A DNA stretch of 64,000 nt, from NCBI RefSeq assembly GCF_007860175.1, contig NZ_SJPX01000005.1, forward strand, positions 310,001 to 374,000, given 5' to 3'. Source of the DNA: Rubripirellula reticaptiva. GTDB taxonomy: Bacteria; Planctomycetota; Planctomycetia; Pirellulales; Pirellulaceae. Within the stretch, counting starts at the first letter, position 1. Every line of letters begins with the position of its first letter. The notes below the pieces were generated by a model. It had not been told where the DNA came from and made no database searches. It worked only from the letters and a program-made list of their open reading frames with translations. This document shows positions 55,970 through 63,654 of the stretch, piece after piece. A program made the position numbers and the translations under genes.

Positions 55970-56992
55970 CTACCGAACCGCTGGCGCGGATGGATTAGCT
56001 GCTTGTTGTGGCGGCAAATCGACCGGCGCGACAAACTTGTCTCGCAAAATCTTCCAGTTCGCCGGTGGCTTTTCAGGAACAAAGTTGTTCATGAACACAC
56101 CGAGTGCTGCACCGATGCTGTTTCGTTTGACGTCGGTGAATTCGTACTGGTCCCACTTCGGTGCCGTCTTGAAGTCAAAGTTGGGTGCGTACATTTTCAA
56201 CGCTTGCGGCAGAAACGTGTTCGCCTCGAGTGCGATTTGAACCAATTTGTACTGAGCACGATCTTCTTGGCGTTTCGGCCAAGCTTCGATCAACACGATG
56301 CCAGCGGTTCCGGCATCGACTTGGCGAATCCAATAACGTTGTTGGATCTGAGCCGCGTCAAGATTAAAGACGAATGGCAGTGGGCTGCTGATGATGTTCT
56401 TGCCCTGCATTTCGGGCGGCAAGTCTTGGATGCGGCATTCTTCTTTACTGCGGTCCATTTCGATCAGTTGTTGACCGTTGCAGACCCAGTGTTCGCCGTA
56501 CTGTCCGGTTTGTGGTTTGTAATGTGGTTTCTCGCCGTCCATGCCGGCAAAGAAAACCAGCTGGTCGACGCGAAAGAGTCCACGGTCAGGTGCAGCGTAC
56601 TTCAACACTCCGTCTGCTCGCGTCGCATGTAAACCGGCCGGTGCGGCAAACATGTCAAAGTGCCAACGCGTGAACTTACACTCCAGCGTCTTGGTTCCTT
56701 GGCTCTGTTGCTGCCAAGCCAACAGGACTCGTTGCAGTTGTGCGTTGGCTTCAGGCGTCAGAGTGAATGGTGCCGTCGGAGCTGCATTCTGGGTCGCCGG
56801 TGCTGCTTGAGCTTGGGCTGCCGATGCAACACGAGGTTGACCGCCACCGTCGACTGGCCGCTGTGCATAGCTAGGCACATTGCCGGCCTGTTGAGCGCAG
56901 AGGGTGGAAGCCGAAACAAGAATCGCCATTCCAGTGGCAAGGGTTCGTCGCATCATCCTTGACGCAGCCTTCTTCGTTCGTGAAACACGCAA
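55970..56992 (-). CDS. Planctomycete exported protein of TIGR03009 type
   Basis: 340 residues. Signal peptide (MMRRTLATGMAILVSASTLC), an Ala/Pro/Gln-rich stretch to about residue 75, then PFTLTPEANAQLQRVLLAWQQQSQGTKTLECKFTRW-like sequence (the common start of this family), LKYAAPDRGLFRVD, WVCNGQQLIEMDR and IEAWPKRQEDRAQYKLVQI. The fold appears LolA/outer-membrane-lipoprotein-carrier-like by strand pattern. No function is known for the family. Minus strand, convergent with pgi; upstream gap leads to the WD40 gene. Family name given from memory, moderately sure. Confidence 0.75.
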   Translation of the reverse strand: MRVSRTKKAASRMMRRTLATGMAILVSASTLCAQQAGNVPSYAQRPVDGGGQPRVASAAQAQAAPATQNAAPTAPFTLTPEANAQLQRVLLAWQQQSQGTKTLECKFTRWHFDMFAAPAGLHATRADGVLKYAAPDRGLFRVDQLVFFAGMDGEKPHYKPQTGQYGEHWVCNGQQLIEMDRSKEECRIQDLPPEMQGKNIISSPLPFVFNLDAAQIQQRYWIRQVDAGTAGIVLIEAWPKRQEDRAQYKLVQIALEANTFLPQALKMYAPNFDFKTAPKWDQYEFTDVKRNSIGAALGVFMNNFVPEKPPANWKILRDKFVAPVDLPPQQAANPSAPAVR

Positions 56993-57322
56993 GCCAGACG
57001 CATCCGAGCGATCGGGCTATTCAGGACTTCTTGTACCGAAGGAGAAGTGGGGAACGAAAGAGCGATTTTGCTGCCGTTTATCCGTACGTGCTGTGGAAAC
57101 TGTCATTTTGGGCGACATCTTTCCACTCCCCTACCTCCCCCTAGCCTTCGCATCCCCCCTGCGTTTTCTCATTGGACAATCTTTTCCGATTATTCGGGTG
57201 ATGACGCTTCATGATCCGTGCCGATCTTGACGTTGGGCATATCTAGGTGCGCGGTCATTTGGCTGCGCAAGATGGTCTTCGAGAGACACAGATTCAGATC
57301 ACGAATCTCCGGGGGGAGAATC
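56993..57322. other. Intergenic, divergent; start region of WD40 gene
   Basis: 330 bases between divergent genes. A pyrimidine-rich stretch (about 57120-57160) and the ribosome site GGGGGGAG just before 57323 are all I can point to. No gene called. Confidence 0.4.
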
Positions 57323-58420
57323 ATGACGTCAAACATTTCGCGCCGACGTTGGCTTCGAACGGTAGCAATCGCAGCTTCGTCGGGCATCTACTTGCCACTT
57401 CCGAACGCGATCGCACAGCCACCGAGCGTCAAATCGTCAACGACGGAACTTCGCACCAGCGGGCCCGGCGGGTCTGGGCTGCCGATTCAAAGCCGCGTCT
57501 ATCGACTCGAAGGCGAAACCAACTCGCCGGTCGTCGTCACCGCAATCGCAGCCGATCCCCGTGGAAAGTGGCTGGCGGTATCGGGTGACGATCACATCAT
57601 TCGAATTCTTGATACGTCCACGTTTGCGATCGCGCATCAGTTGACCGGGCACCGCGACGTGATTCGAACCTTGGTCTTCGATCCGAACGGCGACAGACTG
57701 GTTTCCGCTGGCAACGACGGGCAATTGATCGTTTGGAACTGCAACGATCAGTTTGCACTCAAACAAAAGATGTCTGGCACACCAGCTCTTGCGTGTGTCC
57801 GTTTTGCACCAGACGGTCGCGAAATGGCGGCGGTCGGCTTCAATAACGAAATCTATCTGATCGGTCATCCCGATCGAACACGATCGGTTCTAAATTGCCA
57901 CTGCAACGATTTGCGTGCCGTCGCGTTTCGCGATGATAACACCGTGATCGCAGTCGCTGGACGCAGTGGTGACTTGCACCTATTCGACGTGGGTTCGGGC
58001 AACCTGACCAACGAATTTCCGATTCACAAGGGCCGCATCCACGACCTCGTCTTTCATCGCCAAAGCAACACCGTTATCAGTGTCGCCGAGGATGGTGACG
58101 TTGCGGTGTTCGATACTCGAGCCCAAAAACTGCGTCACCGCATCGAGGTAACATCGGGAAAACTGTTCACCGCTGCGATCTTGAACAGCCAAATGGTGGC
58201 GGTTGCCGGTTCCGACAATGTGATCCGAATCGTCAACACCGACGAAGGCAGAGTCGTCAAGACCCTCGATGGGCACCAGGGCAGCATCAGCACGCTGGCG
58301 GCGACAGCAGGTGCGCTCTTTTCGGGCAGCTTTGACGCGACGCTACGGCGTTGGACGATCGCCGACCTTGTGCAACGCGAGCAACGGATCGCCGAAGTTG
58401 TTCCGACCGTCGATCGCTGA
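57323..58420 (+). CDS. Tat-exported WD40-repeat protein
   Basis: 365 residues from ATG 57323, chosen because it follows GGGGGGAG and directly precedes the twin-arginine signal ISRRRWLRTVAIAASSG. Seven or so WD40-like blades follow; the clearest are HRDVIRTLVFDPNGDRLVSA, GNDGQLIVWNC, AVTFRDD-like AVAFRDDNTVIAVAG, VISVAEDGDVAVFDTRA, VAVAGSDNVIRIVNT and ALFSGSFDATLRRWTI. A soluble, folded beta-propeller outside the cytoplasm, presumably for binding partners. No enzymatic motif. Downstream lies the SdrD-type surface gene; they could work in one envelope assembly, which is inference. Confidence 0.88.
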   Translation: MTSNISRRRWLRTVAIAASSGIYLPLPNAIAQPPSVKSSTTELRTSGPGGSGLPIQSRVYRLEGETNSPVVVTAIAADPRGKWLAVSGDDHIIRILDTSTFAIAHQLTGHRDVIRTLVFDPNGDRLVSAGNDGQLIVWNCNDQFALKQKMSGTPALACVRFAPDGREMAAVGFNNEIYLIGHPDRTRSVLNCHCNDLRAVAFRDDNTVIAVAGRSGDLHLFDVGSGNLTNEFPIHKGRIHDLVFHRQSNTVISVAEDGDVAVFDTRAQKLRHRIEVTSGKLFTAAILNSQMVAVAGSDNVIRIVNTDEGRVVKTLDGHQGSISTLAATAGALFSGSFDATLRRWTIADLVQREQRIAEVVPTVDR

Positions 58421-58458: not shown

Positions 58459-58477
58459 TTCGCACAACTTGTGCGAA
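58459..58477. promoter_or_regulatory. Perfect 19-base palindrome upstream of the surface protein
   Basis: TTCGCACAA-C-TTGTGCGAA, with nine-base arms around a single base, 30 bases ahead of the chosen start of the SdrD-repeat gene. Too short and without T-run for a terminator of the WD40 gene; looks like an operator or a leader hairpin. Confidence 0.5.
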
Positions 58478-58506
58478 TGCAAATGGGGCACACGGAGGTG
58501 CCGAGC

Positions 58507-61500
58507 GTGATTTGGAAAGCAAAACGAAAAAGCGATCGAAAACAGACCGTCCGCACCGACGCACTGAAGCGTCGGGCGATTAGCCCGGAACGACTCGAAT
58601 CGCGCCGACTGTTCGCTGCCGACCCAATCCACGTCGGCGTGGTCTACGTTGAAACCGACTACTTGGAAAGCGACCAAGACGTCGGCGGTGATTCACGTGG
58701 CGACAGGTTCATTTTGTCGTTCGGTGGCGGTGCCGAAAATACCGAACTGACCGAACTGCGCATCAACACCGACAAAGACGGCGATGGCCTAAGCATCGGT
58801 GATCCGATGTTCGACACCGAACTCGGCGGCCGCGGCAAAAACGGAGCACACGGGTTTCAGATCGTTCGCATGACATCGTCCGATGGTCGGCAAATCAATG
58901 CGACCGCCGAAGTCGAAGACGGCGGTCAAGAACTGATACTAAAGCTAACCAACTTCAAAGCCGGCGACCGACTGGAGTTCACCCTCGACGTCGACGAAGT
59001 TTTGCGCAATGCAACGGACTTGGCGATATTCAACGATCGTTTGGACGTGATCACGTCGGGACAAGAATTTCAAGACTCACTGTTTGAAGCAACGTTTGAC
59101 GCGCCGCATTTCGAGACCGCTCACGCCGACGCGATTTTTCTGAACGACTACGGTTCGCCCGATGTTGAATTTGGACTGGACCTTCCACCGGACGAAGGCA
59201 CTGGGCCGGACAGCCGTCCCAACCGTTCAGCGGCCGCCATTGGCGAAACCAACCAAACCCCCAAACCGATCGAACTGTCGGGTACCGTGTGGGTCGACGA
59301 CAACCTCGACGCGATTCGTCAGTCGAGCGAACAGACTCTATCCGGCGTCAGCATTGCGTTGTGGAAGCAAGCGGCAAACGGCAGCTATGCCGATACGGGG
59401 CTGCGCACAACGACCGACGCCAACGGCCGCTATGTGTTTGCTAAATCGCTGGGCATCCTGCCAGGCGTGTACCGCGTTGTCGAGACTCAGCCCGCCGATC
59501 TGCTTAGTGTCGCTTCGATACCAGGAACCGTATCCGGTGCAACCGTTGGTAGCTCGGAAACGAAAGACATTTTGACCGGGATCAACATTCCGCTGGGTGA
59601 TCTGTCCGCAATCAATTACGACTTTGCCGAAGCGGCTCCTGCCTCGATCGGTGGTTTTGTTTACATCGACACCAACAACAACGGCAGCCGCGATGCTGGC
59701 GAAACCGGCATCCCAGGCGTGCGTGTCCAGTTGGTGCCAATCAACACGATCGCGCCGCAGTCGACCCTCAGCGTCACGACCGACGGCAATGGCTCGTACT
59801 CGTTCACCGGATTAGCGCCGGGAAGTTATGAAGTCATCGAGGTCAGCCAGCCCGCGGGGCTAAACGACGGCCTGGATACTGCCGGCACGATCGATGGACG
59901 CACGGTGGGTTCCGCTGACAATCCCGGCGACCGAATTCACGGGATCGACTTGGGCAGCGGAAGCAACGGGATCGAATACAACTTTGGCGAAACTCCGTTC
60001 GGCTCGATCGCCGGTTCGGTCTACTTGGCCGCGCCTGGGCAGGACTGTTTCGCAGATCACGCCGCCGACGACAGCACGCCGATCCCCGGTGTCGAGGTTC
60101 TACTGCAAGACGAATTTGGAACGACGATTTCTCGTACCACCACCGGTGCGGACGGCGGCTATCAGTTCAGCGAAATCCCGAACGGCAACTACCGCATCGT
60201 CGAGTTTACGCCCAACGGACTGATCGACGGCGGTTCGCATGTCGGCCGGATCAACAACGTGACCGTTGGCACCTCAATCGACGGTGGTTTAATCTCGCAG
60301 ATCGCGATGACACCAGGTGGCGTCGGCGTGGAATACGATTTTTGCGAAGCCGCACCGGCGACTCTGTCGGGAAAGGTCTACCACGACCATGACGATGACG
60401 GCATCATCGACGCCAACGAAGAAGCAATCCCAGCGACCAAAGTAACACTCGTGAATGACGCGGGCCAAGTCGTTGCGACGACCGTCACCGACTCGGCAGG
60501 CAAGTACGAGTTTCTTAACTTGATGCCCGGCGAGTACTCGATCGTTGAGTCCCAGCCCGATGGATTCATTGATGGCAAGGACACTGCCGGAACAGTTCGC
60601 GGCGTCAAGCGTGGCACCAGCACGGGCGCCGACACATTGGCCGCGATCTACCTGAAACAGGGTGACATCGGCGTCGAATACAACTTTGGCGAAATCCGAC
60701 CGGCGTCACTATTCGGAAACGTGTTCCTCGACGTGGATGCGGATTGTGAGCGCGACGAAGACGAACTCGTGCTCGAAGGTGTTGAGATTCGATTGCTAGA
60801 TGCATCCGGCCGCGAAGTGGCGATGACGACCACTGACGCCGACGGAAATTATTCGTTCACGGACTTGGTGCCGGGGACCTACACCGTCGTTGAAACCCAG
60901 CCCGACGGATATTTTGAAGGCAACGCAAAACCGGGCAGCGAAGGCGGCACGGTGGTGGACGGCAGCCGCATCGGCAGCATCACGTTGGGATCAGGCGTCG
61001 TCGCGGTTGAATACGATTTTTGCGAACGACCACCGGCTGAGATCCGTGGCAACGTGTTCGCGGATACCGACGAAGACATGGTTTTCGATTCCAATGAATC
61101 CGGCATCCCGGGCGCACGCGTCGAACTGTACGACGCAACCGGCAAGATGATTGGTTTCACCAACACCGACTCGGCCGGTCACTATCAGTTCACGAACTTG
61201 CCGGCCGGCGACTACACGCTGCGCGAAATTCAACCGGCCGGTTGGTTGCAAGGCAGCCAAATGGCGGGCAGCAACGGCGGTGACGATTCGAAACAAGACG
61301 TGATCTCGCGAATTCCGATCGGGTGGGGCGAGCGTCTGACTCAGTACAACTTCAGCGAACTCGAATCGGCCAGCATCGCGGGAACCGTATACGTCGATGG
61401 CAACGGCGACTGCGTACGTGACGAAAACGAACCGCCTCTTGAGGGTGTAACGATCGAACTGCGCGACGCATCAGGCGACTTCGTGTCTCGCACGGTAACC

Positions 61501-63654
61501 AACTCGATGGGGCAATACAGTTTCGAAGGCCTGCGTCCCGGACGTTATCAGGTCTTTGAAGAGCAACCCGACGGATACTTCCAAGGCGGTCAAGTTCCCG
61601 GCACAGGCGATGGCGAAGTGCTCGGCGAAGACTTGTTGGGCGCGGTGTTGCGATCGGGCGATTCACTGGTGAACTACGATTTCTGCGAACTGCCGCCGGC
61701 GTCAATCGGTGGTCGAGTGTGGCAAGAATCAGACCTGAATCGGGTCTACGATGCGGGTGACGTTCCGATCCCAGGTGTGATGGTTGAATTGCTCAATCAG
61801 CAGGGCGATGTGCTCGGTCAGACCCAGACTAATGATGCAGGCCATTACCTGTTCGACCATCTTGCGCCGGGCATCTATTCGGTTCGCGAGACTCAGCCGA
61901 CCGGCCTTTTCCACGGCGGTGAAGTTGTAGGTGATGCGGGCGGACAAATTGGCGGCGACGACCTGTTGGTGGGCATCACACTCACCGGCGGAATGTCGGC
62001 GCGCAACTATGACTTCCCCGAAGTCCCACCCGCGCTAATTTCGGGGTATGTGTTCCAAGACGGCGACGCAATTCAAACCAATAACGCCCCCCTGGCGACC
62101 GAACTGCGACAATACCGCGACGGGCAATTGACGTCCGACGATACGCTGCTGGCAGGTGTGACGATTGAGCTGCGCACGTTGTTGGGTTTGCCGTTTACCG
62201 GCGACCGTGCGCTGCCAGGCGTCTACGGCGATGGCCCAATCCGAACCACGACCGACGCAAACGGATACTACGAATTCACCGGGCTGCGTCCGGGTGTCTA
62301 TCACGTCTATCAGGTCCAACCGTCCGACTTCATTGACGGTTTGGACACACCGGGCTCGACTGGCGGTGTCGCAGTGAACCCAGCCGATGCAGTGGACGAG
62401 AGCGACCGTATCGTCATCCAAACATTGTCACAGAGCGAAGCGTCAAACCCCCACGACGATGCAATTTTAAACGTCATGTTGGTTGGTGGCGGGCAAAGCA
62501 TAAACAACAACTTCAGCGAAATCGTGATTCGCCCAACGCTGATTGCGCCTCCACAGCCGACCCCCGAAGAACAACCACGTGTGTTCACGCCGATCGAAAT
62601 TTTCGATCCGCAGATTCGTGTGATGACGTTCGCCAATCCGCTGAACTTCGTGACGCCCGCAGTCGCCTATGACGAGTGGGCGGTATCGTGGCACTTAAGC
62701 GTGATCAACGGGGGTTTCCCTCGTGGGACACTCGGCGAAGACGGTTTAATCCAAGGCGTTTCATCCAAGACAACTTCACCGAACTGGATCGAAGGCGACC
62801 AGAATCAGGGCCGCTGGACGATTGCGGACAAAGACGGCAACCGAAGCTCAGCGAGTGACAAGTATTCGCTCGGCATGCAGCAGGGTATCGCCCTAGCAGG
62901 TGACTTCGACGGCGACGGATCCGACGAAGGAGTCGTATACAAAAACGGTCAATGGTTCGTCGATTTCAACGGCAACGGTAAATGGGACGCCGGCGATCTG
63001 TGGATGAAGCTGGGCACCGAACTTGATCGTCCGGTCGTCGGTGACTGGGATGGAGACGGCAAGGACGACATCGGCATCTTCGGTCGTCAATGGAATCGCG
63101 ACGAACAGAAGATCAAGAAAGATCCAGGCCTTCCCGACCCAGCCAACAAGCGCCGGCGAGAAGTCGATGCTCGATCGCTGGCACAGAAGGACACCGACCC
63201 GGGCGACGATCGTAAACGACTGCTCGTTCGCGGCGAGCAAGGATCACTGCGAGCCGATGCTGTGGATCACGTATTCAAGTACGGCGAACAAGTTGATACG
63301 CCGATCGCAGGTGACTGGAATGGCGACGGCATTGACCAAATCGCGGTCTTCCGTGGCGGCAACTGGTTGCTAGATGCTGACGGCGACGGACGTTGGACCG
63401 ATGCCGACGAACGAGTCACGTTTGGACGTCCCGGTGACGAACCAATCGTCGGCGACTTCAACGGCGACGAGATCGACGAGATAGGTGTCGTTCGTGGCGA
63501 CCTGTGGATCATCGACACCGACGGTGACCGACGGATCACCGGCAACGACACGCAAATCGTGGTGCCACGAACAAGCGAAAACAGTCAACCGGTCGTGGGC
63601 GACTTTGACGGCGACGGCACCGACGAACCAGCGTATTACGACGAATCCGCTTAA
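58507..63654 (+). CDS. Giant SdrD-B-repeat surface protein with C-terminal propeller-like repeats
   Basis: 1,715 residues. I start at GTG 58507 because GGAGG (58494-58498) stands eight bases before it; ATGs at 58477 and 58483 and a GTG at 58471 lie upstream. The N-terminus has a basic run and then ISPERLESRRLFAAD, a signature of exported planctomycete proteins. Residues about 30-255 are beta-rich. Nine SdrD-B-like (Cna-B) repeats follow, each opening with a V-D-DxDxD-type calcium-binding segment and PGVxVxL, then YxFxxLxPGxY, VxExQPxG and a YxFxE end. The last 330 residues carry FG-GAP-type repeats (GDFDGDGSDEGVVY, GDWDGDGKDDIGIFG, GDFNGDEIDEIGVV). Calcium-bound, surface exposed; role in adhesion is inference. 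Confidence 0.92.
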   Translation: MIWKAKRKSDRKQTVRTDALKRRAISPERLESRRLFAADPIHVGVVYVETDYLESDQDVGGDSRGDRFILSFGGGAENTELTELRINTDKDGDGLSIGDPMFDTELGGRGKNGAHGFQIVRMTSSDGRQINATAEVEDGGQELILKLTNFKAGDRLEFTLDVDEVLRNATDLAIFNDRLDVITSGQEFQDSLFEATFDAPHFETAHADAIFLNDYGSPDVEFGLDLPPDEGTGPDSRPNRSAAAIGETNQTPKPIELSGTVWVDDNLDAIRQSSEQTLSGVSIALWKQAANGSYADTGLRTTTDANGRYVFAKSLGILPGVYRVVETQPADLLSVASIPGTVSGATVGSSETKDILTGINIPLGDLSAINYDFAEAAPASIGGFVYIDTNNNGSRDAGETGIPGVRVQLVPINTIAPQSTLSVTTDGNGSYSFTGLAPGSYEVIEVSQPAGLNDGLDTAGTIDGRTVGSADNPGDRIHGIDLGSGSNGIEYNFGETPFGSIAGSVYLAAPGQDCFADHAADDSTPIPGVEVLLQDEFGTTISRTTTGADGGYQFSEIPNGNYRIVEFTPNGLIDGGSHVGRINNVTVGTSIDGGLISQIAMTPGGVGVEYDFCEAAPATLSGKVYHDHDDDGIIDANEEAIPATKVTLVNDAGQVVATTVTDSAGKYEFLNLMPGEYSIVESQPDGFIDGKDTAGTVRGVKRGTSTGADTLAAIYLKQGDIGVEYNFGEIRPASLFGNVFLDVDADCERDEDELVLEGVEIRLLDASGREVAMTTTDADGNYSFTDLVPGTYTVVETQPDGYFEGNAKPGSEGGTVVDGSRIGSITLGSGVVAVEYDFCERPPAEIRGNVFADTDEDMVFDSNESGIPGARVELYDATGKMIGFTNTDSAGHYQFTNLPAGDYTLREIQPAGWLQGSQMAGSNGGDDSKQDVISRIPIGWGERLTQYNFSELESASIAGTVYVDGNGDCVRDENEPPLEGVTIELRDASGDFVSRTVTNSMGQYSFEGLRPGRYQVFEEQPDGYFQGGQVPGTGDGEVLGEDLLGAVLRSGDSLVNYDFCELPPASIGGRVWQESDLNRVYDAGDVPIPGVMVELLNQQGDVLGQTQTNDAGHYLFDHLAPGIYSVRETQPTGLFHGGEVVGDAGGQIGGDDLLVGITLTGGMSARNYDFPEVPPALISGYVFQDGDAIQTNNAPLATELRQYRDGQLTSDDTLLAGVTIELRTLLGLPFTGDRALPGVYGDGPIRTTTDANGYYEFTGLRPGVYHVYQVQPSDFIDGLDTPGSTGGVAVNPADAVDESDRIVIQTLSQSEASNPHDDAILNVMLVGGGQSINNNFSEIVIRPTLIAPPQPTPEEQPRVFTPIEIFDPQIRVMTFANPLNFVTPAVAYDEWAVSWHLSVINGGFPRGTLGEDGLIQGVSSKTTSPNWIEGDQNQGRWTIADKDGNRSSASDKYSLGMQQGIALAGDFDGDGSDEGVVYKNGQWFVDFNGNGKWDAGDLWMKLGTELDRPVVGDWDGDGKDDIGIFGRQWNRDEQKIKKDPGLPDPANKRRREVDARSLAQKDTDPGDDRKRLLVRGEQGSLRADAVDHVFKYGEQVDTPIAGDWNGDGIDQIAVFRGGNWLLDADGDGRWTDADERVTFGRPGDEPIVGDFNGDEIDEIGVVRGDLWIIDTDGDRRITGNDTQIVVPRTSENSQPVVGDFDGDGTDEPAYYDESA
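59275..62525 (+). repeat. Nine tandem SdrD-B-like repeats in the surface protein
   Basis: Repeat starts near 59275, 59641, 60001, 60358, 60702, 61036, 61369, 61699 and 62032, about 330-360 bases each, with diverged bases but the same landmarks. Repeats 3, 5 and 7 carry a Cys in the first calcium segment (codons 60046, 60745, 61411) and a second Cys at the end of the last strand (60343, 61021, 61684); the others carry none. Confidence 0.85.

Follow-up and report, generated by a model that had tools for sequence, protein, structure and literature searches.

According to the available excerpts of PMC6232131, the B domains of the staphylococcal surface proteins SdrD and SdrG have the mechanically strongest protein fold, thanks to calcium: the strength of these domains depends on three calcium ions, and calcium strengthens the edge formed by the first and last strands. 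In CnaB domains, the first and last strands are joined by an isopeptide bond, and disulfides within CnaA/CnaB-like stalk domains are known at several sites, in FimP, SpaA, and CLIPPER (excerpts of PMC3485203 and PMC12617251). Here, we analyzed a gene encoding an array of nine SdrD_B-like repeats (R1 to R9) in a 64,000-nucleotide stretch, hereafter the window, of the 7.85 Mb genome of Rubripirellula reticaptiva (G000:C5:310001-374000). Pairs of cysteines (Cys) were found in R3, R5, and R7, and it is highly probable that the best explanation for them is one disulfide inside each of these repeats, linking the first loop and the end of the last strand.

The gene, its repeats, and its Cys codons are located as follows:
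58471..63654, + strand: gene of the SdrD_B array surface protein, 1,727 amino acids; nine stretches match the SdrD_B profile, and FG-GAP_3 lies at 1615-1671
59266..59637, + strand: repeat 1, without Cys, ending in YDFAE
59638..59997, + strand: repeat 2, without Cys, ending in YNFGE
59998..60354, + strand: repeat 3, Cys pair, with the variant loop APGQDC
60046..60048, + strand: Cys526, the loop Cys of R3
60343..60345, + strand: Cys625, the last-strand Cys of R3 (YDFCE)
60355..60699, + strand: repeat 4, without Cys, ending in YNFGE
60700..61032, + strand: repeat 5, Cys pair (DADCE; YDFCE), structure modelled
60745..60747, + strand: Cys759 of R5 in alignment column 14, the Gly position of the DxNxDG calcium loop
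61021..61023, + strand: Cys851 of R5 in column 106, last strand
61033..61365, + strand: repeat 6, without Cys, ending in YNFSE, with Met in column 14 and Ser in column 106, structure modelled
61366..61695, + strand: repeat 7, Cys pair (GNGDC; YDFCE), structure modelled
61411..61413, + strand: Cys981 of R7 in column 14
61684..61686, + strand: Cys1072 of R7 in column 106
61696..62028, + strand: repeat 8, without Cys, ending in YDFPE
62029..62517, + strand: repeat 9, a long form with insertions, without Cys, ending in NNFSE

The original prediction had described six Cys, paired in R3, R5, and R7. The protein indeed carries six, one pair in each of these repeats (residues 526/625, 759/851, and 981/1072), in the sequence contexts that had been quoted (APGQDC in R3, DADCE in R5, GNGDC in R7, and YDFCE three times), and R1, R2, R4, R6, R8, and R9 are free of Cys, with the endings listed above. 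The interval to which the pattern had been assigned, 59641..62040, starts inside R2 and extends through R8, leaving out R1 and nearly all of R9. The length of 1,715 residues agrees with translation from codon 13, likewise a GTG, but the full open reading frame (ORF) starts at GTG 58471 and encodes 1,727 residues.

The arrays of relatives were fetched and a repeat profile was built, giving 598 repeats with the nine of the window included. The regions were hand-picked from match lists, and 2 of the 598 repeats come from loci chosen by the end-Cys motif itself; the raw counts include near-identical relatives, and thinned counts are reported alongside them. The results showed that two alignment columns hold 425 of the 463 Cys: column 106, in the last strand (YDF-C-E), accounts for 219, and column 14, at the Gly of the DxNxDG loop, for 206. 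Both columns could be compared in 520 repeats (78 were dropped for lack of one column, the end column in 49 and the loop column in 29), among which 195 had Cys at both, 310 at neither, 9 at the loop only, and 6 at the end only. When the labels were permuted within arrays in 5,000 shuffles, 191.2 ± 9.8 discordant repeats were expected, with a minimum of 159, and only 15 were observed. Thinning at 60% identity left 66 repeats with both, 129 with neither, 7 with the loop Cys only, and 2 with the end Cys only; among the representatives of 50%-identity clusters the numbers were 20, 55, 0, and 1. Cys pairing is thus far from chance and holds as a rule in the protein family.

The number of Cys per repeat pointed in the same direction. 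In the 549 complete repeats (49 of the 598, without end columns, were left out), 306 had no Cys, 228 had two, 12 had one, and 3 had three, so that 534 had zero or two, and a Poisson law of equal mean would predict about 200 single-Cys repeats rather than 12. Three of these 12 are cut by a contig end. All nine loop-only repeats have their second Cys elsewhere, in column 73 (four repeats) or column 75 (five), and five of the six end-only repeats are of the R3 type, in which the loop Cys lies in column 12 or beyond the aligned region; a true single end Cys was found in one repeat, L036 repeat 6. By corrected mutual information, columns 14 and 106 rank first of 5,356 column pairs (z 9.3), and columns 14 and 73 rank third. 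Covariation, even parity, and the relocated partner Cys lend strong sequence support to the disulfide staple that had been proposed.

The pair could also be merely a mark of descent, with two old paralogue types in which the Cys travel together without a bond. Many further columns differ between the types, for example 7, 8, 12, 31, and 37, and few contrasts lie on supported branches, as this explanation would have it. The best FastTree tree requires no fewer than 17 changes of the pair state; on the best tree with 332 rows, a minimum of 24 changes was counted for the joint state and of 21 and 18 for the single columns, so that most changes are shared by both Cys. Over the six independent contrasts on well supported branches, the second Cys changed the same way in 4.2 on average and the opposite way in none, with no difference in 1.8. 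Both Cys differ jointly even between orthologous repeats that are 80% identical outside the Cys columns, repeats that miss the end Cys have a partner in column 73 or 75, and odd Cys counts are rare, all of which argue against shared descent alone, and we regard it as unlikely. Linkage of neighboring repeats or neighboring chains, which would cross-link the fibre, is very improbable. An end Cys does meet a loop Cys of the following repeat at 89 junctions, but the end Cys of one repeat and the loop Cys of the next are nearly independent (neither at 110 junctions, loop only at 113, both at 89, end only at 84), 72 of the 195 paired repeats have Cys-free neighbors on both sides, and bonds between chains would need no pairing within a repeat. 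The explanation that we hold to be the least probable is that the two thiols, together with the acidic loop, hold a non-calcium metal instead of bonding to each other. The loop Cys does sit among the usual calcium ligands, whose single acidic columns are mostly kept; the full set of five is present in 77 of the 195 paired repeats and in 151 of the 310 without Cys. Against this, pairs away from the loop (columns 60/90, 3/50, and 31/60, in seven repeats) obey the same two-Cys rule, and the pair survives the shortening of the loop in L094, L121, and L128.

Several observations weigh against a disulfide inside each paired repeat. With only six independent contrasts on well supported branches, significance is not reached. 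Among the 549 complete repeats are nine uncut single-Cys and three three-Cys repeats. No pair is present in the orthologues of G021, G039, and G053 (a fourth pairless orthologue ORF, in G020, is a contig-end fragment). Of the 64 genomes or records counted, 11 lack any repeat with Cys at both columns, although 5 of these 11 (G028, G029, G046, G065, and G066) hold a pair that is placed or aligned otherwise. Neither DsbB nor VKOR was found in the genome by Pfam models; a DsbA-like gene is present (E 2.7e-43).

In the disulfide explanation, which we prefer, the bond would tie the end of the last strand to the loop that follows the first strand and that is the calcium loop in the B domains of SdrD and SdrG, and these two elements would be those that close the beta-sandwich. 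The two sulphurs of each pair would lie within bonding distance. The array protein is probably exported, and the disulfide would then form after export, outside the cytoplasm. There it may lock the domain covalently, so that it resists pulling and unfolding, a task for which related stalk domains use calcium or an isopeptide bond between the first and last strands.

The SdrD_B profile (PF17210) scores 437.8 bits on nine stretches of the protein, with a curated cut-off of 29.7, which places the repeats in this family, and in the AlphaFold model they are predicted to adopt the SdrD B-domain fold. Of 289 three-repeat stretches, 120 were used as input for the first structure model, those with S.S patterns being preferred, and the second model used 44 hand-picked companion sequences. 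The repeats share the Pfam family and the fold with the staphylococcal SdrD/SdrG B domains (PDB 4jdz, 8vdk, and 10ps), as well as the tandem arrangement of stalk domains and the acidic loop, with the five ligands complete in part of the repeats. In the alignment with SdrD, the loop Cys falls on the Gly of NKNG, and SdrD has Gly at the equivalents of both Cys columns, unlike the paired repeats. The mid-repeat Glu is present in 92% of paired and 78% of Cys-free repeats, and the last-strand Asp/Asn in 94% and 93%. No first-strand column is dominated by Lys (the maximum in paired repeats, weighted, is 9%, at column 5), so the isopeptide triad of the CnaB type is incomplete. CnaB-type domains such as pilins and CnaB2 carry an intramolecular isopeptide lock, whereas the planctomycete repeats have a Cys pair instead; the pair would work like the calcium and isopeptide clamps, and the repeats are not isopeptide domains. 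In FimP, as far as the available excerpts describe it, the disulfides connect both ends of the beta1-beta2 loop, or the sheet to a hairpin; unlike these, the planctomycete pair would connect the first loop to the last strand, and it recurs in arrays of up to 13 repeats.

A further difference between the two kinds of repeat lies in columns 71 and 74, where the acidic pair DxxD is present in 191 of 310 Cys-free repeats vs 17 of 195 paired ones, and this pair is possibly a calcium site that was given up. An exchange of a calcium site for the disulfide was considered and is not claimed: over five supported-branch contrasts, the difference was opposite in 1.2 on average, the same in 0.4, and absent in 3.3, which is not significant.

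Pairs also occur in other placements: columns 60/90 in three repeats, 3/50 in three, and 31/60 in one, and these are apparently independent staples in one repeat type. The seven repeats are L105 repeats 3 and 7, L087 repeat 1, L107 repeat 5, L125 repeat 2, and L115 repeats 3 and 4; in L105 and L107, some repeats that seem empty hold a pair of another placement. A short-loop form, DC...YDFCD, was found in 11 repeats of L094, L121, and L128, which keep the Cys pair but have lost the greater part of the first calcium loop; in the predicted model of an L128 stretch, the strands are retained with high confidence. Outside the order, the SdrD_B repeats of L167, from a distant relative within the phylum, show a different Cys pattern, with Cys at columns 8 and 31-32, and often at 59.

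The pair was proposed to mark every second domain, in an array grown by copying a two-domain unit. Among the 53 arrays that have five or more repeats, two or more of them paired, strict alternation was observed in 18, namely, the window array and 17 others; 15 arrays have the paired repeats in an unbroken run and 20 are mixed, so the description holds for part of the arrays only. In the 32 non-solid cores with at least four repeats, neighbor changes numbered 114 vs 84.4 ± 4.4 after shuffling (maximum 102 of 5,000), in a test that treats related arrays as separate. With the Cys columns excluded, repeats two apart were closer than neighbors in 17 of the 18 strictly alternating arrays, the window array included, in 4 of 14 solid runs, and in 7 of 20 mixed arrays. 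The mean identity over the 18 alternating arrays was 0.62 two apart vs 0.45 between neighbors, and in L040 it was 0.89 vs 0.41. A greater likeness of repeats two apart than of neighbors is a sign of two-repeat copying, and alternation in other families most likely arose in this way, to judge from these sequences.

The two-domain unit therefore fits 16 of the 17 other strictly alternating arrays; it does not fit the window gene, where the margin is small (0.44 two apart vs 0.39 between neighbors) and two-domain copying was rejected: orthologues of R6 are paired, R6 and R8 are only 0.39 identical, and R8 has counterparts in eight-repeat arrays of five genomes (identity 0.55-0.59). The identity of the window R6 is 0.80 with R6 of G001 and 0.72/0.74 with R6/R7 of G003. 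Among the matches listed within the genus, eight of nine R6 orthologues, in eight genomes, carry the pair and the ninth has the end Cys only; the carriers are G001, G003 (R6/R7), G002, G005, G009, G011, and G012, and the repeat with the end Cys only is that of G006. Because the R6 orthologues of the genus carry the pair, the alternation seen here points to a loss from R6, and the window array was most likely once paired in R5, R6, and R7.

The array protein is widespread in its order. Homologues at E <= 1e-30 were found in 51 of 57 Pirellulales genomes drawn, the window genome included, and no match at this threshold was obtained in the remaining 6, 4 of which are all four genomes of family f8. 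Named relatives include Stieleria sedimenti, Rhodopirellula sp. SM50, and Planctomycetes bacterium TBK1r; Stieleria is placed in Pirellulaceae, Pirellulales, Planctomycetota. Among 70 loci, including that of the window, the C-terminal region is present in 63 and the N-terminal region in 58. Orthologue ORFs were defined by a shared N- or C-terminal region and at least three repeats (some are contig fragments or second copies), and 62 of the 66 carry pairs; in 53 of the 64 genomes or records, at least one repeat has Cys at both columns. Paired repeats appear under all 21 family labels with counted repeats (19 coded families, Pirellulaceae, and one unlabelled record). Ten other SdrD_B arrays from six genomes, a non-random sample, had no Cys in 107 repeats. 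When repeat 7 was searched against a draw of 149 genomes of the phylum at 1e-12, four matched: the window genome, a second genome from the same family, and two from other orders. Among 65 repeats from 28 loci of phylum members outside the order, none of the 60 repeats that reach column 14 has Cys there, and other Cys do occur; column 106 is reached by only 2 of the 65. In the arrays sampled, the pair is confined to a single orthologous protein of Pirellulales.

Further long SdrD_B arrays of the same genomes, L046 (G000:C3:545000-556000), L047 (G000:C5:46000-64000), and L042-L044, have detected repeats that are all free of Cys.

With regard to its layout, the protein consists of a basic N-terminus (RRAISPERLESRRLFAADP), a conserved N-terminal region, the nine SdrD_B-like repeats, and an FG-GAP-like C-terminal region. 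The N-terminus, judged by its sequence without a signal-peptide program, looks like an export signal. No LPXTG anchor was found at the C-terminus (...FDGDGTDEPAYYDESA), in contrast to the Sdr/MSCRAMM adhesins, which have an LPXTG end. The whole-protein NCBIfam models SdrC and SdrD were not matched (299.6 of 1700 and 293.2 of 2500 bits), and their best stretches fall within the B repeats. Directly upstream, at 57218-58420 (+), lies a gene for a WD40-type protein with a Tat-like N-terminus, SRRRWLR, recognized by eye. A homologue of this gene is present on the fetched stretch in 59 of the 70 loci, the window included, which suggests that the WD40-type gene and the array gene may form an order-wide gene pair; proteins of the WD40 type are common. 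Past the WD40-type gene, on the opposite strand, 55970-56992 (-) encodes a protein with the TIGR03009 planctomycete-specific domain (183.6 bits).

Neither the planctomycete array protein, nor an optional or movable pair, nor a pair at this edge of SdrD_B was found in the open-licence literature of PubMed Central, and the array protein is not named in the available part of PMC7717043. Tentatively, and with somewhat more doubt than confidence, we propose that in this Pirellulales stalk protein a calcium-clamped SdrD-type domain became a covalently stapled one, with a movable disulfide, two alternating classes of bead, and a staple that outlives the calcium loop. The optional placements of the disulfide would then be loop to last strand, loop to column 73 or 75, 60/90, and 3/50. 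If this is true, the alternation of stapled and unstapled domains in many lineages would give a fibre with two bead classes of different strength, and in some lineages the staple would have outlasted most of the first calcium loop. The arrays offer hundreds of natural variants of a single domain, some with a likely staple and some lacking it, in several placements and often adjoining in one chain, so that the trade-off between a covalent lock and calcium at this edge becomes testable through neighboring repeats. These results also mark out a specific surface protein that is conserved in 51 of 57 genomes of the order.
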